64,000 nucleotides of DNA from Chloroflexota bacterium. Its GTDB lineage: Bacteria > Chloroflexota > Anaerolineae > Anaerolineales > Villigracilaceae. Where the stretch lies: NCBI GenBank assembly GCA_021414245.1, contig JAIOOU010000004.1, positions 248,001 through 312,000 of the forward strand. Reading direction: 5' to 3'. The position numbers and the translations under genes were made by a program. The notes under the pieces are model-generated. The model saw only the letters and a program-made list of their open reading frames with translations. It searched no databases and had not been told where the DNA came from. Below, in pieces: positions 15,137 through 28,700 of the stretch. Position 1 is the first letter of the stretch. The number at the start of each line of letters is the position of its first letter.

Positions 15137-16399
15137 ATGTTTCACAATTTAAAATTAGACGCGGCCAAAGTCTATTTATTTATTGAATTTACAGCATCGG
15201 CTTTCTTCTCCATGATGTTTGTGACCATGTCGTTGTATGAAGCCACGGTGGCCGGGCTTACCCCGCTGCAGCTTGTGCTGGTGGGTACGACGGTGGAACT
15301 TTCCATTTTCGTGTTCGAGATCCCCACCGGTGTGGTTGCGGATGCGTTTTCCCGCCGCTTGTCCATCATCATCGGATATGTTGTGATGGGGATTGGCACC
15401 CTTGTGGAGGGATTTTTTCCGGCTTTCCTGCCGATTCTGCTTGCCCAGGTGATTTGGGCATTTGGTTATACCTTCACCAGTGGCGCCACACAGGCTTGGA
15501 TTTCCGACGAGATCGGTGAAGGACCTGCCAACCAACTTTTCATGCGCGCCACCCGGATCGGGTTGATCGCATCTTTGCTCGGGATGGGGCTGGCCATTTT
15601 CATTGGCGCCAACAACGTTGCCCTCCCCATTCGGTTTGGCGCACTGGGCGTGCTTGCCATCGGTTTAGCCCTGATCTTTATCATGCCTGAAACCGGATTT
15701 AAACCGGCTTCGAAAGAGGATCGGAACAACTGGCAGCATATGTGGCATACCTTTAATGAGGGGTTGAGGTCCGTGCGCGCCCGTCCGCGACTGATCACCA
15801 TTCTTGGAGTGGGACTGTTCTATGGCTTGTATAGTGAAGGATTCGACCGGTTGTGGGTCAAACACCTGATCGATCATTTTGAGATCCCGGTGATCTTCGG
15901 GAATAACCAGGTGGCCTTCTTTGCAGTATTGCGCATCGCCGGTTCAATCCTGACCATCTTTGCCATACGCTTTGTTGAGAAGCGGGTCGACTCAGGCAGT
16001 CCGCTGGCGATCGGGCGGGCGATGCTGATCGTGACCGGGGTGATCGGATTGGCAATGATCGGGTTTGCAATTTCCCCGCTTCTGTCCCTGACCCTCGGCT
16101 TGTATCTCGTTATTAAAGTTTTGCGGGACGTGCATGATCCCCTAAATTCGGCTTGGGTGAACCAAAAACTCGACCCGGAGACCCGCGCCACCGTGCATTC
16201 CATGGTGGGGCAGGTTGACGCAATAGGGCAGGTTGCAGGCGGTCCGGGCGTGGGCTTGATTGCGCGGTTCTTTTCGGTGGGTGCAGCCATCGCGACTTCG
16301 GGACTGCTGCTCATGCCGGCCATGTTCCTCGTAGGCAGGGCCAACTCACAGTCCGGGCAGGAAGCGGATACGGGGGCGGATGCGGCACTGATCGTGTAG
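15137..16399 (+). CDS. Major facilitator superfamily transporter
   Basis: Multiple TM segments; FEIPTGVVADAFSRRLSIIIGYVVMG (motif A-like). Confidence 0.88.
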   Translation: MFHNLKLDAAKVYLFIEFTASAFFSMMFVTMSLYEATVAGLTPLQLVLVGTTVELSIFVFEIPTGVVADAFSRRLSIIIGYVVMGIGTLVEGFFPAFLPILLAQVIWAFGYTFTSGATQAWISDEIGEGPANQLFMRATRIGLIASLLGMGLAIFIGANNVALPIRFGALGVLAIGLALIFIMPETGFKPASKEDRNNWQHMWHTFNEGLRSVRARPRLITILGVGLFYGLYSEGFDRLWVKHLIDHFEIPVIFGNNQVAFFAVLRIAGSILTIFAIRFVEKRVDSGSPLAIGRAMLIVTGVIGLAMIGFAISPLLSLTLGLYLVIKVLRDVHDPLNSAWVNQKLDPETRATVHSMVGQVDAIGQVAGGPGVGLIARFFSVGAAIATSGLLLMPAMFLVGRANSQSGQEADTGADAALIV

Positions 16400-16479: not shown

Positions 16480-16508
16480 TTGACGCATTATCCCCTTGCA
16501 TGTATAAT
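16480..16508 (+). promoter_or_regulatory. Near-consensus sigma70 promoter TTGACG-N17-TATAAT driving the signalling cluster
   Basis: Hexamers and 17-nt spacer read directly; first gene starts at 16553. Confidence 0.8.
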
Positions 16509-16552: not shown

Positions 16553-17359
16553 ATGGCCCTGCGCGGAAATTTACGAGATTTTACCGTCACCCAATTGCTT
16601 AATCTTATTAACCTTGCAAGCAAAACCGGTACGCTGGTGGTGGATGGGGCATCGGAGCAGGCCTATATATCGTTCCGTGATGGAAAACTTGCCTACGCCC
16701 GGATCGGCCAGGAGGATGGAAGCCTGGCCGCTGTTTTGCATAAGGCCAATAAGATCAATGCCAATCAATACCGGGCGATCGCGGATCGTGCAGGCCAGAT
16801 GACTGACAAGGAACTCGGCCTGCTTCTTATTAATGCAGGATATGTTTCACAGGAAGACATCCTTTTAAATCTGCAGGGGTATTTTACGGAAGTCGTCCGC
16901 AGGTTGTTCACCTGGGTGGAGGGCATCTTCCGTTTTGAGAACGAAATGCTTCCCCCGGAAGACCGCATCAATGTGCGGCTTGACCTTGAAAACATTATTA
17001 TTGAAGGCTCCCGCCAGCTGCGCGAGCTGGAGCAGCTGCAGGACGAGATCCCAAGCCTGGATATGGCCCTTAAGTTTACGGAACGTCCACTGACCAATGT
17101 GAATTTGAGCGTGGATGAATGGAAAGTGGTGAAGTTCGTAGATCCAAAGAACACCATGCGCCAGATCGCAAGCACGAATAAATTAAGCGACATTGAAGTC
17201 CGCCGGATCGTATATGGACTGCTGCAGGCGGGACTGGTGGAAATGGCGCGTCCCGCAGGGGCTGCGCCGATCCCCAATCCCAAGCAGTTCCCAACCCAGG
17301 ACAAGGACGAACAGAAATCATTGATCAATAAATTGATCGGCCGAATTCGCACAATGTAA
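16553..17359 (+). CDS. DUF4388 (PATAN-like) protein with C-terminal winged-helix-like region
   Basis: MALRGNLRDFTVTQLLNLINLASKTGTLVVDG...AYISFRDGKLAYAR; C-terminal TMRQIASTNKLSDIEVRRIVYGLLQAGLV. Confidence 0.8.
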   Translation: MALRGNLRDFTVTQLLNLINLASKTGTLVVDGASEQAYISFRDGKLAYARIGQEDGSLAAVLHKANKINANQYRAIADRAGQMTDKELGLLLINAGYVSQEDILLNLQGYFTEVVRRLFTWVEGIFRFENEMLPPEDRINVRLDLENIIIEGSRQLRELEQLQDEIPSLDMALKFTERPLTNVNLSVDEWKVVKFVDPKNTMRQIASTNKLSDIEVRRIVYGLLQAGLVEMARPAGAAPIPNPKQFPTQDKDEQKSLINKLIGRIRTM

Positions 17360-17387: not shown

Positions 17388-17921
17388 ATGCAAACGGTCA
17401 AAATGGTAGTAACGGGTCCATTCAGTGCTGGCAAGACGCAGTTCATTCAGTCTGTCAGCGAGATCGATGTCGTTGCCACGGAACGAAAGATCACGTCGGA
17501 AGAGGAGCGTTCCGTCAAATCGGCAACCACGGTTGCGATGGATTTCGGCCGCATTACCGTGGACGAGGACCTGGTACTTTACCTGTTCGGCACACCGGGC
17601 CAAAAGCGTTTCGACTTCATGTGGGAGATTCTCTCGGAGGGTATGTTGGGCTTCATTGTCATGGTGGATAGCACCCGGCCCGAAACCTTCCGCGAGGCGC
17701 GTTCCATCCTTGAGACCTTCCGGGCCTATGCCCCCACGCCCTTTGTGGTGGCTGCAAACAAACAGGATGCGGAAGATGCCTGGGAGATCGAAGATGTTCG
17801 TCATGCCCTGCGCCTGGACAGCAATACCAAGCTGTTGCCTTGTGTGGCGACCAATCGTGAAACTGTAAAATCTGTATTGCTTGAACTGCTGTACAGCATC
17901 ATTAAAGAAATGGATTCCTGA
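17388..17921 (+). CDS. Small Ras-like GTPase (COG2229/CvnD-like)
   Basis: TGPFSAGKTQFI (P-loop), LFGTPGQKRFDFM (G3), AANKQDA (NKxD, G4). Confidence 0.9.
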   Translation: MQTVKMVVTGPFSAGKTQFIQSVSEIDVVATERKITSEEERSVKSATTVAMDFGRITVDEDLVLYLFGTPGQKRFDFMWEILSEGMLGFIVMVDSTRPETFREARSILETFRAYAPTPFVVAANKQDAEDAWEIEDVRHALRLDSNTKLLPCVATNRETVKSVLLELLYSIIKEMDS

Positions 17922-17948: not shown

Positions 17949-18746
17949 GTGTCATCAATCACCACTGATCAGGGAATAGTTCATTACGAAGTATATGGGC
18001 GCGGGCGTCCCGTCATTCTTTTACATGGATGGCTGGGATCCTGGGGGCTTTGGCAGGAAACCATGGCCTATCTGGGTGCGTTTTATCGCACTTACGCACT
18101 GGATTTCTGGGGATTTGGTGAATCGGGCAAGAAACGCGATACCTACGCTGTTTCTGATTTTGTCAGCCTTGTCAATCAATTTATGGACCAGTTGGGAATT
18201 GTCCATGCGCCGCTGGTGGGTCACAGCATGGGCGGGACCGTCAGCCTTTCTGTTGCCATCAAATACCCCGAGCGTGTCAGCAAGGTTGTGGTGGTGGGAT
18301 CTCCGATGATAGGGTCCTCGCTTGCACCCCTGCTCAAGCTGGCAGGTTATCGTCCAATCGCATTCATGTTGTTTAATATGATGGGTGTTTTTCGGGCCGG
18401 GATGCGCTTGTATTCCCCCATCATTTGCAAGGACCCGCGCTTTCCTGAGATGATGGATCGTGACCTGTCCCGCACCACGGTTGAATCCTTTCTTCGTTCG
18501 ATTGCATCCCTGCGCCGCACAGATCTGACCCCGATGCTGTCCCAGATCAAGGTGCCTGCCATGGGTATGTATGGGGACAAGGATGTTATTGTTCATCCTT
18601 TGCAATGGCAGCCCATGCAGCAGGGGATTCCGCAGGCAGTTATTGAACGCTTCCCAACATCCGGTCATTTTCCGATGTTGGAGGAGCCAACGATTTTCAG
18701 CCAGAAATTAAAGGCATTCCTCGACCAGGATTCTCCAGCATCATGA
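17949..18746 (+). CDS. Alpha/beta hydrolase with Ser nucleophile elbow (GHSMG)
   Basis: GTG start; VILLHGWLGSWG, LVGHSMGGTVSL, GHFPMLEEP. Confidence 0.9.
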   Translation: MSSITTDQGIVHYEVYGRGRPVILLHGWLGSWGLWQETMAYLGAFYRTYALDFWGFGESGKKRDTYAVSDFVSLVNQFMDQLGIVHAPLVGHSMGGTVSLSVAIKYPERVSKVVVVGSPMIGSSLAPLLKLAGYRPIAFMLFNMMGVFRAGMRLYSPIICKDPRFPEMMDRDLSRTTVESFLRSIASLRRTDLTPMLSQIKVPAMGMYGDKDVIVHPLQWQPMQQGIPQAVIERFPTSGHFPMLEEPTIFSQKLKAFLDQDSPAS

Positions 18747-19363
18747 GCGGCGAATCCTTTTTTTATCCCCAGAAAATGGGCAGGTTGATCTTTTTGGGCA
18801 TGGAGGAGGTGATTGGCACGAGCGGGGTGGATGCCGTTCTGCGTGTTGCATCCCTGGAGAAGTTCATCCACAATTACCCCCCATCCAATTCTGAACGCAA
18901 ATTTTCGTTCGAAACGGTCAGTCTGCTGCAGAGCGCACTGGAACAGATTTACGGTCCTCGTGGTGGGAGGGGGTTGGCGCTGCGGACAGGACGTGCCTGC
19001 TTTAAATATGGTCTCAAGGAATATGGATCCATGCTTGGGTTGACTGAAATGGCGTTTCGACTGCTTTCCCTGCCCACGAAACTGCATTCCGGCACCCGCA
19101 GTTTTGCGGACCTTTTTAACAAGCAGACCGATCAAAAAGTGACTGTGGAAGAAAAAGACGGCATGATCTTGTGGCATATCGAGCGCTGCCCGTTGTGTTG
19201 GGAGAGAAAAGCTGCAGAGCCCGTCTGTCACCTGGCGGTGGGATTGCTGCAGGAGGCTTTATACTGGCTGAGCGGGGGCAAGGTGTTTAACGTGGAGGAA
19301 ACTGCCTGTATTGCCAGGGGCGACGCAACCTGTACCATTGCCATCGATCAAACCCCATTTTAG
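18743..19363 (+). CDS. V4R (4-vinyl reductase) domain protein
   Basis: ATGA overlap with the upstream gene; CPLCWERKAAEPVCHLAVGLLQEALYWLSGGKVFNVEETACIARGDATCTIAI. Confidence 0.8.
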   Translation: MSGESFFYPQKMGRLIFLGMEEVIGTSGVDAVLRVASLEKFIHNYPPSNSERKFSFETVSLLQSALEQIYGPRGGRGLALRTGRACFKYGLKEYGSMLGLTEMAFRLLSLPTKLHSGTRSFADLFNKQTDQKVTVEEKDGMILWHIERCPLCWERKAAEPVCHLAVGLLQEALYWLSGGKVFNVEETACIARGDATCTIAIDQTPF

Positions 19364-19433
19364 AAGTCCTGCTACATTAACAGTTTTGTTGAATGGGGTG
19401 TTTTGCGGTCACTTTGCTTTATAATCCCTGATT

Positions 19434-20711
19434 ATGCTTAAAATCATACTGCACGCGCAGGACCAGATCATGCCATTTTGCGAGCCGGCGCGTGAATTAC
19501 GCATACAAAATTCACCTCTTTGGCTGCATCAACGAAATCTGCTTGCTCCCTACGTCACCCGCGAAATGGAGTTGAAGCAGGGTGAACGTCTGCAGCCGGT
19601 GCGTGAGCCCACCATTGTTTATCGCGACAACCTGTTTTTTGACGAATTTTATATCCGGGCTTTTATGACGGAGGCGATGAAAAAGAATCGCCCTGTGCGG
19701 GCGGCGTTTCGCGCAGACGACCCGGCCTTTAAGGAGCACGCACTGCCCCTTTCCACTTCCTACACCCCGGCAGGAAGTTTATATCTGGCTGATCTTTGGT
19801 ATTACCCGAACGGCCCTGTCGCGGGGGTGGAACCCCTTGTGATCGACATGCAGGCCCGCGAGATCGGCTATTATCATGTCCCAACGTACATGGGCGACCA
19901 AAGCGGCGATCTGATTTTTCAGGTGCCCTTGCGCTCCATGATTGCAATTGATTCCTGGGTGCATGTCTTTATTGCAGATGTGGTGTTTGGTCTGTTCGCG
20001 CGCGGCGCCCGCTATGAAAAAAGGGCAAATGAGGAGTTTTCTTTCAAACTCAAGATCATCGGAAAAGCCGTTTACGAGGGACGTCAGGTATTGGAGTGTT
20101 CCGAAGTTGTAAAAATCGGCAAGAATTGCGTGATTGACCCAAGCGTTGTCATTAAAGGTCCCACAACCATCGGCGATAATGTCACCATTAATGCGGGTGC
20201 TGTGATTGATAACAGCATCATTGGGAACAACGTTAATATTTCCCAGGGTGTGCAGGTCATGCTGTCTGTGGTGGGGGATGGGGCCTTCCTGCCCTTCCGT
20301 GCCGCGTTGTTCATGACCACCCTTATGGAAAACGCCATGGTGGCGCAAAATACCTGTCTGCAAATGTGTGTGATCGGCAGAAACACCTTTATCGGCGCCG
20401 GTTCCACATGGACGGATTACAACCTGATCCCTGCACCTCTTCGTGCCCGGGATGGCAACGGCAAGTTGAGCCTGTCCAACCGGCCCGTCATGGGCGGGGC
20501 CGTCGGGCACAACTGCCGCATCGGTTCAGGCATGATCATCTACCCGTCGCGCACGATCGAATCAGATGTCGTGTTAACAGCCTCTGCTGAAAGACGTGTG
20601 ATCGATCGAGACATCACCTTTGACCAGAGCGATCATCACCATCTCAAGCTTGCTCATTTGCATCAAACGCCATACCACCGGCATTTGAAGGCCGAGGTGG
20701 AGTCGTGGTAA
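19434..20711 (+). CDS. Left-handed beta-helix (hexapeptide-repeat) acyl/nucleotidyltransferase-like protein with a ~200-aa N-terminal extension
   Basis: IGKNCVIDPSVVIKGPTTIGDNVTINAGAVIDNSIIGNNVNISQGVQV and GHNCRIGSGMIIYPSRTIESDVVL. Confidence 0.8.
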   Translation: MLKIILHAQDQIMPFCEPARELRIQNSPLWLHQRNLLAPYVTREMELKQGERLQPVREPTIVYRDNLFFDEFYIRAFMTEAMKKNRPVRAAFRADDPAFKEHALPLSTSYTPAGSLYLADLWYYPNGPVAGVEPLVIDMQAREIGYYHVPTYMGDQSGDLIFQVPLRSMIAIDSWVHVFIADVVFGLFARGARYEKRANEEFSFKLKIIGKAVYEGRQVLECSEVVKIGKNCVIDPSVVIKGPTTIGDNVTINAGAVIDNSIIGNNVNISQGVQVMLSVVGDGAFLPFRAALFMTTLMENAMVAQNTCLQMCVIGRNTFIGAGSTWTDYNLIPAPLRARDGNGKLSLSNRPVMGGAVGHNCRIGSGMIIYPSRTIESDVVLTASAERRVIDRDITFDQSDHHHLKLAHLHQTPYHRHLKAEVESW

Positions 20712-21797
20712 ATGGATAGCTTTGCCTTCATTATTCACCCGATCGATCCCAAGCGCGATGTAAGCCGAAAGTTTCCATTTTTAGGACGTGTTCTGACTGA
20801 AAGACAAATCGATTTCTTTTCCACGTTCTTTCCGCCCGTATATATTTCGGAGATCGAAGGGATCACTTCCCGGGCGACCGGCAAAGTGGTCAGGGGCTGG
20901 TTCATTGCCTGTCCGTATACGCCGCGTCGCATGATGGAGTTGCGTGAGCGCACGGTCTATCGTAAAATTATTCAAACCGGCCGCATGGCTGAAAAACTTG
21001 GCGCAAATATTCTCGGTCTGGGCGCTTTTACATCGGTGGTGGGCGATGCAGGTGTGACCATTGCGAATGCGCTTGAGATCCCCGTCACCACAGGCGATTC
21101 CTTTACTGTGGCCATGGCCGTCCAGGCCATTCGGGATGCGGCGCAGGTAATGGATATTAAAATTGAAGAGGCGACGGTGGCTGTTGTCGGCGCGACCGGG
21201 GCAATTGGCCGCGTCTGTGCCGAACTGTTGGCCGGAGAAGCTGCGAGGATCCTGCTCGTGGCCCGGGATGAGAAAAAGCTTCAGGTGCTGCAGGACAGGC
21301 TCAAGGTCGGGGCGAGAAGCGAGCTCGTCATCAGCACGAAAATGGACGTGTTGAAGGATGCCCAATTGATCCTGACCGTCACGAGTTCGATCCACGATGT
21401 CATCCGTCCGGAGCATCTGCAGGCCGGCAGCGTGGTTTGTGATGTGGCCCGCCCCCGCGATGTTTCTGCAATGGTGGCGGCAGTGAGAGATGATATATTA
21501 GTGATTGACGGCGGCATGGTGGATGTGCCAGGCACCGTAAATTTTAATTTTAACTTTGGTTTTCCCGAAGGAAAAGCCTATGCCTGCATGGCCGAGACAA
21601 TTGCACTGGCTTTGGAGGGTCGTTTCGAGGATTACACGGTTGGCAGGGATATTACTATCGAACGCGTGAAGGAAATTACTGCGATCGCCGAAAAACACGG
21701 TTTTCGCATGAGCGGCTTCCGCTCTTTTGAGCGCGAAGTGACAAATGAACAGATCGAAGCCGTTAAACGTAATGCGCGTCTGCGCATACAAGCGTGA
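20712..21797 (+). CDS. NAD(P)-dependent oxidoreductase resembling cyanobacterial long-chain acyl-ACP reductase (AAR)
   Basis: LGANILGLGAFTSVVGDAG, VTTGDSFTVAMA, EATVAVVGATGAIGRVCAELL, YACMAETIALALEGRFEDYTVGRDITIERVKEITAIAEKHGF. Confidence 0.7.
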   Translation: MDSFAFIIHPIDPKRDVSRKFPFLGRVLTERQIDFFSTFFPPVYISEIEGITSRATGKVVRGWFIACPYTPRRMMELRERTVYRKIIQTGRMAEKLGANILGLGAFTSVVGDAGVTIANALEIPVTTGDSFTVAMAVQAIRDAAQVMDIKIEEATVAVVGATGAIGRVCAELLAGEAARILLVARDEKKLQVLQDRLKVGARSELVISTKMDVLKDAQLILTVTSSIHDVIRPEHLQAGSVVCDVARPRDVSAMVAAVRDDILVIDGGMVDVPGTVNFNFNFGFPEGKAYACMAETIALALEGRFEDYTVGRDITIERVKEITAIAEKHGFRMSGFRSFEREVTNEQIEAVKRNARLRIQA

Positions 21798-21817
21798 CGC
21801 GGCCAGAGGAGATATAT

Positions 21818-22723
21818 ATGGGAAAAGCCCGCCTTTTGGTAGTAGAAGACGATGTGGATATCGCCAACATGCTCAAGATCTATTTTTCGGGCATGCAATA
21901 CGATGTGGAGGTTGCGCACCGTGGACGTGATGCCCTGGAAAAGACAAAACAATCCCTGCCGCACCTGATCGTACTCGATATCATGCTGCCGGATATTGAC
22001 GGGTATGAGGTCTGCCGTAATTTGCGAACCAGCACCCGCACCAGCCATATCCCGGTCATCTTCCTGACCCAAAAGGACGAACGCAGCGACAAGCTGCAGG
22101 GTCTTGAACTCGGGGCTGATGATTACATCACCAAACCCTTTGATATTGAAGAGTTGAAACTGCGTGTTCAAGGGGCCATTCGCCGCTCGGAACGCGAAAG
22201 TCTGACCGATCCCCGCTCGGGCCTTCCCGCCGGGCGTTTGATCGAGGAGCAGTTGCGCCGGATCATCCGTGAGACCAGCTGGGCCCTGTTGGACGTGCGC
22301 CTGAATAATTTTGACGCCTTCAAGGATGTCTACGGTTTCGTGGCCGGAGACGATGTCTTGCGCTTTGCCGCGATGATGATTGGTGAAGTGGTGGATGAAT
22401 TTGGAACCACAAGCGATTTCATCGGTCATGCAGGCGGGGATAACTTCATCATTATTACGACGAACGAAGCTGCCCCGAGCATTCGTCAAAGGTTAAAAGA
22501 AAGATTTGCAACAGAAGTGCAAAGCCACTACAACTTTATCGACCGCCAGCAGGGATTCATCCAGGTCCCGAAAGCTGAAGGTGGCTTTGAAAAAGCCGGC
22601 TTTATGACCTTCTCTGCGGGGCTGGTTTCCCCAAGTTCGCATTCCTTTGCGGATATCCGTGAGATCACCGAACTTGCAGCCGATGCTCGCAGACAGGACG
22701 CGGCAACTGCCTCAGCCGCTTGA
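21818..22723 (+). CDS. Response regulator: receiver plus degenerate GGDEF-like domain (GGDNF)
   Basis: ARLLVVEDDVDIANML, IVLDIMLPDIDGYEVC; DVRLNNFDAFKDVYGFVAGDDVLRFAA...HAGGDNFIIIT. Confidence 0.88.
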   Translation: MGKARLLVVEDDVDIANMLKIYFSGMQYDVEVAHRGRDALEKTKQSLPHLIVLDIMLPDIDGYEVCRNLRTSTRTSHIPVIFLTQKDERSDKLQGLELGADDYITKPFDIEELKLRVQGAIRRSERESLTDPRSGLPAGRLIEEQLRRIIRETSWALLDVRLNNFDAFKDVYGFVAGDDVLRFAAMMIGEVVDEFGTTSDFIGHAGGDNFIIITTNEAAPSIRQRLKERFATEVQSHYNFIDRQQGFIQVPKAEGGFEKAGFMTFSAGLVSPSSHSFADIREITELAADARRQDAATASAA

Positions 22724-22739: not shown

Positions 22740-25700
22740 ATGTTGCCCGGGTTGGGAATTAATCTGTTCTTTATTGCGTTGGTGCTGATTGCGGCCGTTC
22801 TGACGGCCTTGTGGCTGTTAACGCGCTCCCGCGCGGCACTGCCTGTAATTTCCAAACCCGTTGCCTACCCTGATGCTTCCCGTTCATCCAATGATGCAGT
22901 GATCATCATTGAACCCGGCGGACGGGTTGAACATATTAGTCCGCTTGCACGCACTTTTTTCGATCTACGTGAGAATGAGCCTTATGACCTGGAGCGGCTT
23001 GCACGCCGGGTACGTCCCTCCGATGATTTCCTGGATATTTGTGTTTCCCCCGGATACAAGCGTGTTTCCATCGGCGGAAAGTTGATGGAAATCGCCTCTT
23101 ATGAAGTACCAGGTGTATACCCGCTCATGCTGGTTTCCCTGCGTGGGAAGGATTTTTCCCCGGCTCTTGAGCAGGGTGGCGGAGCCTCGGAAGAGATATT
23201 AAGGGTGGTTACTGAATTCAGTCAGGGAATTGCCGCCAGCCTCGATCTTGATACTACAGTTCAATCCATCCTTGATAATGTAAGTCGTCTGGTCCCCTCC
23301 GATGTTCTTGAATTAAAACTCTGGAATGCGGAAAACCAGGCTCTTGTGCCCCATCAATCATTCAAGCTTAATGAGAGAAAGGGACGGGTTGTGATTCCGC
23401 CATCCCAGTTTGGAAGCCTGACCACTCAATTGGCGGCAAAACGGGTTCCAATGATGCTGGCAGATGCCCGATCCCAGCCTGAACTTGCCGTGAACGGTGA
23501 ACTGCTTCCAATCCAGTCTTATTTGGGAATTCCCCTCCTGGCAGGCGGGGAATTGATCGGTTCGATCGAGGCGGGTCAAAAAGGTGGCGGGGCGTTTGGT
23601 CAACATGATCTTGACATGCTTTCCCTGATTTCCACCCAGGCCGCTGTTGCGATCCGGAATGCCAGATTATATGAAGAGGAACAAAAGCGTGGACTGGAAC
23701 TTGCCGGCCTTGCAAATTTAAATCAGTCACTTGGATCTGTACGCGATGTTCAGGATATTTTTGTTCGGCTTGTGGAAAGCATCGCCCCGCTTTTCGCCGT
23801 GGATATTGTCGGCTTCCTGATCTATGATGAAGAGAAGCGCACCCTCGAGGGCAGGGCGCCTTTCCACGGATTACCCACCCATCTGGTTGATATTTACCGC
23901 GCAGGCATCGCAGCTGATGGATCGGCTGAGCGTGTACTTTCGAGCCAACAGGCTGTTTTCACCTTAAATGCAGCCAGTGATGAAAAATGGCAGGCCCTTG
24001 GCCTTTCTGACATTGCGATTGCAGCCAGTTTGCGTGACAATGCCCTTATTCCCTTGATTTCATCAGGACATGTGCAGGGATATTTGCAGATCGGCCACCA
24101 TACGCAAGGTGCATCGGCGTTTACTGCGGAGGAAGTCCGTCTCGCGAACATTGTTGCCAATCAGGCGGCAGCGATCATAGAGAATGTGCGTCTGGTACAA
24201 CAGGCACGCATCCGAACGCAGCGTTCTGAAGCATTGCGCCGCATTGCAAGCCTGTCCGGTTCATCCGCCACCCTTGAAGAGATCTTGAAATACTCGGTAC
24301 AGGAGCTGGCCGGTCTTCTTCAGGCGGATACGGGCGCAATATTCCTTATGGATGAGTCCCGCGGCGAATTGCGCCTGCGCCGCGAATCCACCTTTGGCAT
24401 TTCCGAGGATGTCAGCAAATCCTTCCTTCAGATCTTTGTGGATGACCCGAATTACCCTTATACAGTTTCAGGTAGTCAAAAACCATTCCTGTCCGGCCGC
24501 TTGAGCACGGATCGAAGGGTCTTGCCGGTCTATCGGCCTTTGACGACCGCGCTTCTGGTTGAATCCGCCATTGTTGTTCCACTGGTGGTTCGGGAGCGCA
24601 GTATTGGCGAATTAATGCTGGGCAGTTTTAAAGCCGATCATTTTAATACATATGACCTGCAAATTGTCTCCACGGCAGCGGCGCAGTTGGCGACCGCAGT
24701 GGAGTCGGCAGGGTTGTTGGCTCAAACGGATGTTTCTTTACGCCGACGGGTGGATCAGCTTTCGGCGATCACGCGAGTTGGCCGGGAATTGGGCGCAACC
24801 CTCGATATTCAACCTTTGCTCAAGATCATTCATGATGAAGGGTTAAGGGTTGTGCATGCAGATTGCGCATCCATTGTTTTGTTTGAACAAAAAACAACCC
24901 TGTCAGACCCCAAAGTCGAATTCTTTGCCGGTTGTGAGCCGGGCGCTGGAATGTCCGATATTCAACAGGCCGCATTGACAAGCGCTGAACCTCAAATCGT
25001 TGCCGATTTTTCATTGGAAAACAAACGGATTCCGCATCAGGGAGTGAATTCCGCCCTCGTTGTCCCGATCACTTATCAGGCCCAGATTGTGGGCTTGATA
25101 AGTCTGCATTCGCGCCAGCCCGGTTTCTTTACAGCGGATGTAGCGGAACTGGTTCAGGCCCTTGCCGTGCAGGCCGGGATCGCGTTGAGCAATGCCCAAA
25201 GCTATAAGATCGAAAAACAAAAGGGCGAGTTGATGCGCCGCCGTGCTGATACCCTTGTGACTCTTACGGACGTCAGCTACAGTATCGGCCAGGAACAACC
25301 GCTTGATCAGGCTTTGCAAATTATCGCGCGAGGCATTCGTGATTCAACCCCCTTCCGGGTTGTGTTGATCAGCATTGTGGAGCAGGATTCTGGTTTGCTG
25401 CGCCGGGTGACCGCGGTGGGAATCCCGGCGGATACGCTCAATGAACTTCTGGCCCGCAAACAGCCGTTGTCTGGTGTTCAACAGCTGATGCATCCTGAAT
25501 TTAAGATCAGCCGTTCCTATTTCATTCCCATTGATCAATCCCCGGTCGTGCCCTCGGATGTACATATCGTCACCCTGGATGTGGCGGAAGCCGCAACCAA
25601 GTCCCCCAATTCCTGGGACCCGGACGATACTTTGCTTGTCCCGCTTGAAAACGCTGAAGGGAATATCATTGGACTGATCAGTCTGGATGATCCGGGAAAT

Positions 25701-28700
25701 GGCCTGCGCCCAGATAAAGCCACCATTGAATCTGTGGAGGTTTTCGCTTCGCAGGCGGCACTTTTGATCGGCACCACCTTCCGCCAAAGTGACCTGCGTA
25801 CCCGCATCGATTCCCTTTCGGCTGGACTGCAGCGCCAGCAAAAATTGCTTAATCTCACACAAAATGACCTGCCCGTCCTGCTTCATAAGGATTTGGAGCA
25901 AACGATCTCCCTGCATGATCTGGATAGACGCGCCCAACGCGTTCGCGCTGGGTTGGCCATTACTGAATCCGTAAGCCGCCAATTGGATGCCTCTTCCGCC
26001 CTGTCTGCCCTTGGCCGGGAAACTTTGACCCAGTTGAGCATGTCGGTTGCGCTGGTGGCAGAAAACACCCCGGATGGTCCGCGCCTGTTGCATGTGCTTG
26101 GCAGCCTGCCGCGTTCCACAAATGTTGAGGCTCTTTTTGGCCAGCGCAATCCGTTGCGCACCTGTTTGCAGAGCGGCACGCCCATATTGATCTCCAATTT
26201 GGATGATTCCGATGAATGGCGTGATGCCTCCCTGCTCACTTCCCTGCGTGCAAAAGGGATGATCTGTCTGCCGGTCGTTGTGGAAGGCAAACCAGTGGCA
26301 GCCATGCTTGCCGTCAGCCCTGAACCGATCACCTCCTTTACGGAGGAGGACTATCAAGTCTATCTGCAGATCTCGCAGCAGACCTCCCTGATCCTTCAAA
26401 ACATCTCCCTTTTGAATCAGACGCGGCGCCGTCTCGATGAAGTGAACCTGTTGCTGGACTTCAGCCGCAAGCTTTCAGCCATGGATACGGATGCGATCAT
26501 CAAATCCCTGCTCGAAAGTTCGCGCCGCGTCCTTCCACATGCTCATGCGGGAGCTGTCCTGCTTTGGAATCCAAAAACAGAAACGCTTTCCCCGCGCATG
26601 GTCTCCGGCTATGCGGATAATGCCAGCATGCTGCAAATCAATTACCGCATGGGGGAGGCCCTGCCTGGAAGTACGTTCTCCCGCAAGACCGCGCGTCGGG
26701 TGGACGAGATCAATTTTGTACGTGACTACAATCTGAATTCGGATAATCTTGCATTATATCGTCAGGCCACTGGCGGTCGTTTGCCGGTTTCCAGTTTGTT
26801 GATCCCGATCATCTCCAGTGAGCAGCCCCTCGGTTTGCTGGTGTTGGACAATTTCAATACCACTTCAGCATTCCGGCCGGAGGACGAGGTTCTGTTGCTT
26901 TCGCTTGCCCAGCAGGTCGCCCTTTCCCTCGACAACTTGCGTCTCGTTCAGGCCACGACCGAACGCGCCGGTCAATTACAGGCATTGAATGATGCCTCCG
27001 CATCCCTTACCTCCAGCCTACGAAGTGACCAGTTGGTGGGCTCCCTGCTCGACCAATTAAGCCCGATCATTCCATACGATACGGCCACCCTCTGGCTGCG
27101 TGACAAGGATCGCCTTTTCGTTGCGGCCGCCCGCGGATTCACAGACGCCGAACATCGCCTTGGATTGTCTGTTGCCGTTTCAGACAGCGTGCTCTTCAAG
27201 GAAATGGCCCAGACCGGGCAGCCCATCCTGGTGCGGGATGTTCGTGAGGATTCCCGCTTCCTGCCGGTTGAGGCTCCTCGTCTTTCTTGGCTGGGGATTC
27301 CGCTGATTTCCAAAGGCGAATTGGTGGGCGCGATCGCCATTGAGAAATGGCAGTCTCATTTTTACACTCATGAACAAATGCAGGTCGCTTTGACCTTTGC
27401 CAGTCAATCTGCTGTATCTTTGGACAATGCCCGGCTGTATGAAGACAGCTTGAACCGCGCCACGGAATTGGATCAACGTTCCCAGCGCCTTACCACGCTC
27501 AACCGTTTCACATCCGCCCTGACCGGACTGCTTGATACTGAACGCATTTTGAATGTCACTGCCGATGAATTGTTCAGGGGCCTTGGAGTGAAGCGCGTTT
27601 CCATCGTGACCTTTGAACGGGGCCAGGCGTACTGGAAGATCACCACCCCCCGTGGGCGTGTCAAACTTCCACGAGCCCTGCCGGATGCTCCAATTTTCAA
27701 CCGACTGCGCGAGTCTCTGGGTATTTTTAATACCGAGGATGTTCGCAACGAACCTGACCTCGCCGAACTCATGGATATGTTCGGGGAAAACACCACGGCC
27801 CTGTTGATCCTTCCCTTGATAAGCGGTCAGCATCTGACGGCGCTTGTTTTTGCACAAATGACGGGTGAGGCCCGCTTTGGTTCGAATGAAATTGAAGTAG
27901 CCCGCACCATTACCAATCAGGCTACCATCGCGCTTGAAAATGCCCGTCTGTATCAATCCACCGTCCGCACGGCCGAGCGCTTTGCCATTTTGAATGAGAT
28001 CAGTGCCCAGATCAGCGCCAGCCTTGACCCCGAGGAGATTTACGTCTCGGTTCACAAGGCGGCGGAACGCTTGATGCCTGTGGAAGCTTTTGTGATCACC
28101 CTTCTGGACGAAGAGAGAAATGAGATCGATCCGGTCTACCTCCTGGATCTTGGCAAGCGCATCCCGGGTCAGCGCGTCCCGTTTGGAAGGGGCATGAGCA
28201 GTGACGTGATCAAGAGCGGAAAGCCGATCCTGGTTTCCTCCCTTGAGCAGGCCAATAACCTGAATGCAGTTCAGACCGGGTCCGGAGAGACCCAGTCCAT
28301 TGTGGCCGTTCCAATGATGTTGGGCGGCAAGGTGCTTGGCATGTTGTCCGCACAAAGCTATCAGGCCGGTGTGTACAGTGAGGAGGATATGCAGATCCTC
28401 GGAACGCTCGCCAATCAGGCCATTGTCGCCATCCAAAACGGACGTCTCTTTGCCGAAACACAAAACCTTGCCGCCCAGTTGGAAATGCGCGTGGTGGAGC
28501 GCACTTCGCAATTGCAGCGTGAACAGCACAATACGGAAACCCTCCTGCGCATTCTCACCGAAGTTTCATCCAGCCTTGATCTTGACCGTGCCTTGAATCG
28601 AACATTGTCACTGCTGAATGACGCCATTGGCGCTGAACAGGGAACCATTCTGCTCCTGCATGCGGAGGACAACCTTTTGCATTTCCGCGCGGGATATGGT

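Follow-up and report, generated by a model that had tools for sequence, protein, structure and literature searches.

A predicted acyl-thioester reductase related to AAR, PigE and TamH and its probable beta-helix partner in a conserved Chloroflexota locus with signalling genes

Reductases of the AAR type take part in the synthesis of alkanes by cyanobacteria and in the pathways of prodiginines and tambjamines. The N-terminal thioester reductase of PigE (prodigiosin pathway, PDB 4ppm) is reported to turn a thioester into its aldehyde in vivo (PMC8341465), and PtTamH, whose C-terminal TR domain acts in the pathway of tambjamine YP1, is reported to reduce C12-ACP with NADH in vitro while yielding no product from C12-CoA (PMC9594044). 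For AAR, a mechanism proceeding via a Cys has been described (PMC9743570), and PigE and PtTamH both contain the same Cys as the protein P0001 characterized here. This protein is encoded in a stretch of 64,000 nucleotides, termed the window (G000:C7:248001-312000), from a 3.87 Mb draft genome of a Chloroflexota bacterium that is 98% complete. As noted in an initial annotation of the DNA, two open reading frames of 425 and 361 residues directly abut, the TAA of the former (P0002, hereafter also LbH) being followed immediately by the ATG of the latter (P0001). Both are embedded in a module of genes on the same strand, which contains the following features:

16553-17359, + strand: DUF4388 (PATAN-like) protein, with whose gene the module begins (PF14332, 9.8e-26)
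17388-17921, + strand: small Ras/SRPRB-like GTPase (PF03029, PF00071)
17949-18746, + strand: alpha/beta hydrolase with a GHSMGG nucleophile elbow, its stop overlapping the V4R start (PF00561, 2e-31)
18743-19363, + strand: V4R-domain protein, possible sensor of small hydrophobic ligands (PF02830, 7.5e-11; conserved neighbour)
19379-19425, + strand: conserved promoter, AACAGTTTTGTT at 19379-19390 and TATAAT at 19420-19425 (11 aligned upstream regions)
19434-20711, + strand: partner P0002, 425 residues, nucleotidyltransferase-like N-terminal half with an apparently lost GxGTR loop, followed by a left-handed beta-helix (Pfam Hexapep, Foldseek, alignment A2)
20103-20603, + strand: left-handed beta-helix region of P0002, about residues 224-390 (Pfam, alignment, model)
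20712-21797, + strand: AAR/PigE-type acyl-thioester reductase P0001, 361 residues (NCBIfam, PDB, AF2, Foldseek)
21189-21209, + strand: GxxGxxG dinucleotide-binding motif of P0001, G160/G163/G166 (alignment, pairwise map)
21585-21587, + strand: codon of Cys292, predicted acyl-accepting nucleophile equivalent to SeAAR C294 (pairwise map, alignment)
21794-22723, + strand: response regulator, receiver and GGDEF domain with degenerate GGDNF (domain search, motif survey)
22740-30143, + strand: histidine kinase, 2467 residues, about 11 GAF domains and a PAS domain (domain search)

Upstream of the LbH gene, the motif AACA[AG]TTTTGTT and a TATAAT about 8 nt ahead of the start codon align in 11 relatives, and the exact pattern is found once in this genome and once each in three of the five genus mates searched, in all cases at this locus only. 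The conservation of the motif pair and its confinement to the locus suggest that the LbH-AAR unit probably has its own promoter, with a transcript that is probably leaderless since the TATAAT is located so close to the start codon. A second promoter-like site (TTGACG-17-TATAAT, 16480-16508, 11 of 12 matches) precedes the DUF4388 gene. In case of the response regulator, the lengths of homologues and a GGAG site suggest ATG 21819 as the true start, and the replacement of GGDEF by GGDNF in most of its relatives indicates that the protein is probably not a working diguanylate cyclase. The length of the multi-GAF kinase is conserved in its family, and the V4R protein did not match any solved structure in a sequence search of the PDB. 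Outside of the module, an MFS transporter at 15137-16399 resembles TetA(P)/Tet(40) with scores of 287 and 280 bits, far under the cut-offs of 750 and 800.

The motifs by which the 361-residue protein had initially been related to AAR are present, and the likeness is far above chance. In NCBIfam, the PigE model matches residues 4-354 of P0001 (230 bits, 5.6e-68) and the AAR model TIGR04058 residues 28-332 (138 bits, 4.4e-40), whereas the best hits in a sequence search of the PDB are the PigE-like 4ppm (3.3e-38) and the AAR structure 6jzq (1.5e-31), with respective values of 1e-58 and 1.6e-47 if a profile of 26 reductase sequences is used as query. The protein thus matches the AAR model but stays below its equivalog cut-off (449.7 bits), with the PigE family scoring higher; it also misses the cut-off of 850 of the PigE equivalog NF053554 and contains no aminotransferase domain. 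Judged by these scores, the closer relationship of P0001 is with thioester reductases of the PigE type and not with the AAR equivalog. In a pairwise map, C294 of SeAAR corresponds to Cys292, the GxxGxxG glycines G162/G165/G168 to G160/G163/G166 and the basic residues R73/R79/K80 to R78/R84/K85. Cys292 and the three glycines are invariant in all 26 aligned reductase sequences, in line with the proposal that the Cys position of AAR is kept. The AlphaFold model (AF2) has a mean pLDDT of 93.3, and its comparison with the PDB by Foldseek returns AAR itself and not another Rossmann family as best match (TM 0.77/0.81; 6jzu, E 2.8e-26), the first seven matches all being AAR chains (TM about 0.75-0.82), followed by the TAD domain of carmabin. 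In sequence and fold over its full length, and in the acyl-accepting Cys and GxxGxxG motif, P0001 is a stand-alone member of the AAR/PigE/TamH acyl-thioester reductase superfamily. Taken together, full-length likeness, aligned Cys, fold and the position of its scores make it very likely that the protein forms an aldehyde from acyl-ACP or acyl-CoA via a Cys thioester, as predicted from family and active site anatomy.

The preceding gene had been described as encoding a beta-helix protein resembling acyltransferases, of which the first part stands: Pfam identifies the hexapeptide repeat PF00132 with 7.5e-16. Conversely, no specific acyltransferase family of NCBIfam scores above its cut-off (LpxD 39.7 of 207 bits, GlmU 38 bits), and an acyltransferase role is unsupported, with nothing in our data specifically pointing to acyl transfer. 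In its AlphaFold model (mean pLDDT 79.7, with low values of about 50-60 for residues 225-295), the full-length protein resembles sugar-1-phosphate nucleotidyltransferases, the first match in Foldseek being ST0452 (5z09, TM 0.61/0.70). Upon inspection by eye of a 33-sequence alignment (A2), the GxGTR...K signature is unrecognizable in the N-terminal domain. H359 is invariant in this alignment. In light of a nucleotidyltransferase fold with an apparently lost signature, we therefore read P0002 as a degenerate relative, probably a non-catalytic or re-purposed one acting together with the reductase.

The pairing of the two proteins extends across much of the phylum. Of 301 genomes of Chloroflexota, 52 encode AAR, 52 encode LbH and 48 encode both, also where the genes are unlinked. 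The genome-level Fisher value of 5e-46 overstates the significance because the genomes are related, and at the level of families (8 with both, 4 with AAR alone, 2 with LbH alone) p is about 6e-6 if 62 families are assumed, the minimum number covered by the sample. AAR occurs without LbH in G144, G184, G145 and G251, and LbH without AAR in G104, G216, G150 and the fragmented genome G295. Within Anaerolineales, the proteins share a locus with the order DUF4388-GTPase-hydrolase-V4R-LbH-AAR-REC/GGDEF-multi-GAF kinase together with the conserved promoter. The relatives used for the comparison of neighbourhoods were the best 80 matches and are for this reason mostly close kin. Close relatives of the genome bear the names Anaerolineales or Brevefilum (phylum Chloroflexota). 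Of the named relatives, 54 offer 6 kb or more of sequence ahead of the reductase; every one of them has LbH there in the same orientation, and the region also contains the hydrolase (49), DUF4388 (48), the GTPase (48) and V4R (39). REC/GGDEF and the kinase follow downstream in 70 of the 71 relatives with enough sequence. At L125:5478-6566, a close AAR homologue has REC/GGDEF downstream, with no LbH detected within 5.4 kb upstream. In Chloroflexia, the LbH gene still adjoins REC/GGDEF and the kinase, and the AAR is encoded elsewhere in the genome. The genomes include G118, G166 and G110, which we take to be those of Chloroflexus aurantiacus, Roseiflexus sp. RS-1 and Herpetosiphon aurantiacus. 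While the reductase is a variant within a known superfamily, its conserved partnership with LbH is the less expected part of our results.

Most AAR domains of Chloroflexia constitute the C-terminal half of proteins of about 700 residues, where they are fused to an N-terminal domain (NDOM) for which neither Pfam nor NCBIfam offers a useful match as name and whose stand-alone relative is without match in the PDB. These NDOM-AAR fusions form one clade (100/100) in a phylogenetic tree, with copies from WS/DGAT-bearing genomes residing in a subclade of their own, apart from P0001; PigE, SeAAR and a TamH-like protein are found on long branches without firm placement. A WS/DGAT gene directly adjoins the fusion in three genomes (G198, G094 and G230). 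At L047:8213-11802, an NDOM-AAR fusion overlaps the start of a WS/DGAT-family gene and, judging from this arrangement, the two are a probable wax-ester pair. Homologues of NDOM stand alone twice in the genome investigated here, outside the window (G000:C7:520196-521098 and 598821-599705), and in L198, L199 and L201 a stand-alone NDOM adjoins open reading frames that by eye resemble a nucleotidyltransferase and a PAP2 phosphatase.

With respect to the fate of the predicted aldehyde, the absence of an aldehyde-deformylating oxygenase (ADO) from the vicinity of the reductase, which had already been pointed out, extends to the whole 3.87 Mb genome (PF11266, 0 matches; Synechococcus control positive), and alkane synthesis by a cyanobacterial AAR-ADO pathway was thus rejected. 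WS/DGAT was found neither in this genome nor in the other genomes of group f1 that were searched; WS/DGAT wax synthesis was rejected for this genome, where wax esters would have to be made by a different enzyme. Because of the missing ADO, the most likely fate of the aldehyde would be reduction to an alcohol and incorporation into a lipid, and since relatives of the reductase are linked to wax synthases, we favour, with modest confidence, its conversion into a fatty-alcohol-containing lipid. In the scheme that we infer, from the substrate and cofactor through the release of the aldehyde and its reduction to incorporation of the alcohol into a lipid, as well as in the roles of partner and signalling genes, acyl-ACP (or acyl-CoA) would hand its acyl chain over to Cys292, where the thioester would be reduced by NAD(P)H bound at GATGAIG and a fatty aldehyde released. 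The latter would be reduced to the alcohol and enter a wax-ester-like or other envelope lipid, with P0002 working together with the reductase and the V4R, GTPase, REC/GGDEF and multi-GAF kinase proteins controlling or responding to the pathway. As a whole, this is our best explanation, which we regard as having an even chance of being correct. It is at odds with the placement of wax-linked fusions in a subclade away from P0001 and with G104, G216 and G150, which have kept the other genes of the locus but not the reductase.

Concerning the enzyme itself, an ordinary Rossmann dehydrogenase merely resembling AAR appears highly improbable. The Pfam models above cut-off on P0001 are Shikimate_DH (PF01488) and, barely, PF01118, and the HemA model reaches 35 bits, but such matches span only residues of about 130-260 with scores far under those of full-length AAR and PigE, and in Foldseek shikimate dehydrogenase and glutamyl-tRNA reductase trail AAR with TM values of 0.30-0.39 compared to 0.77. 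An identity as shikimate dehydrogenase, SDR or HemA was thus rejected, as only the Rossmann part matches and the respective folds are less similar. A reductase feeding an amine or other specialized product, as in case of PigE and TamH, would agree with PigE being the closest scored family and with an aminotransferase-AAR fusion of TamH layout in one Chloroflexota genome (G145; L054:7018-9567), yet the conserved genes of the module do not include an aminotransferase and the fusion is found on a long, distant branch, which leaves this alternative with little probability.

The content of the locus is the reason to retain a further alternative, where the aldehyde or its product would be a lipophilic signal made by AAR, hydrolase and partner and sensed by V4R and the multi-GAF kinase with REC/GGDEF. 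In DmpR and similar regulators, the V4R domain is a sensor of small hydrophobic ligands. A synthase-like gene beside a kinase and response regulator in nearly all relatives with enough downstream sequence, and an LbH-AAR pair whose conserved promoter is confined to this one position in the genomes searched, would fit this assumption. It is weakened by the persistence of the signalling genes without AAR: V4R-LbH-REC-kinase loci of Herpetosiphon-, Roseiflexus- and G150-type genomes do not contain the reductase, and in G104 and G216, from the same order, the locus is present with no AAR in the genome. Genomes of groups f11 and f12 contain the locus without the kinase, which also speaks against this alternative. 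We consider a signalling role unlikely, though not as unlikely as an amine product, and maintain the incorporation into a lipid as preferred explanation.

A stand-alone AAR-type reductase is thus kept across Anaerolineae without an alkane-forming partner, in association with one particular beta-helix protein and with signalling genes, which suggests that fatty aldehydes serve a purpose not yet described in this large and mostly uncultured phylum. Novel aspects are the co-occurrence of reductase and partner with the shared Anaerolineales locus, and the fusions in Chloroflexia, some beside a wax-ester synthase. Roseiflexus has been reported to make wax esters, as has Chloroflexus (PMC4400912), and with no WS/DGAT match in the Chloroflexus-type G118, the reductase is a candidate source of fatty alcohol in the latter. 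It appears rather doubtful that all of this reflects one Chloroflexota-specific fatty-aldehyde pathway, with the degenerate nucleotidyltransferase/beta-helix protein as obligate partner of the AAR-type enzyme also in Chloroflexus, where the pair would form part of the missing wax-ester route and be tied to control by GTPase, V4R and multi-GAF kinase proteins.

In comparison to known systems, P0001 resembles cyanobacterial AAR (6jzq, 6jzu) in standing alone, with about 29% identity over the fold, but differs in its score against TIGR04058, a shorter loop after GAFTSVV, an extra C-terminal helix and a genome without ADO. The alignment with PigE, the family of best score, and PtTamH runs to residue 353 and includes this helix, which AAR is without, and PtTamH also contains the NAD(P) motif; both proteins are fused to a PLP aminotransferase, whereas P0001 stands alone in a GTPase/V4R/two-component locus. 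Its partner shares the two-domain fold of GlmU/ST0452/GMPPA-type sugar-1-phosphate nucleotidyltransferases with beta-helix, a likeness in which the LbH half is partly modelled at low confidence, but has only about 13% identity, a short N-terminal domain and the unrecognizable signature. Finally, although the reductases of the WS/DGAT loci of Chloroflexia form a separate subclade and the genome of the window is devoid of WS/DGAT, the reductase domain of their NDOM-AAR proteins is homologous to P0001, and for these wax-ester loci a route from aldehyde to alcohol to ester is plausible.
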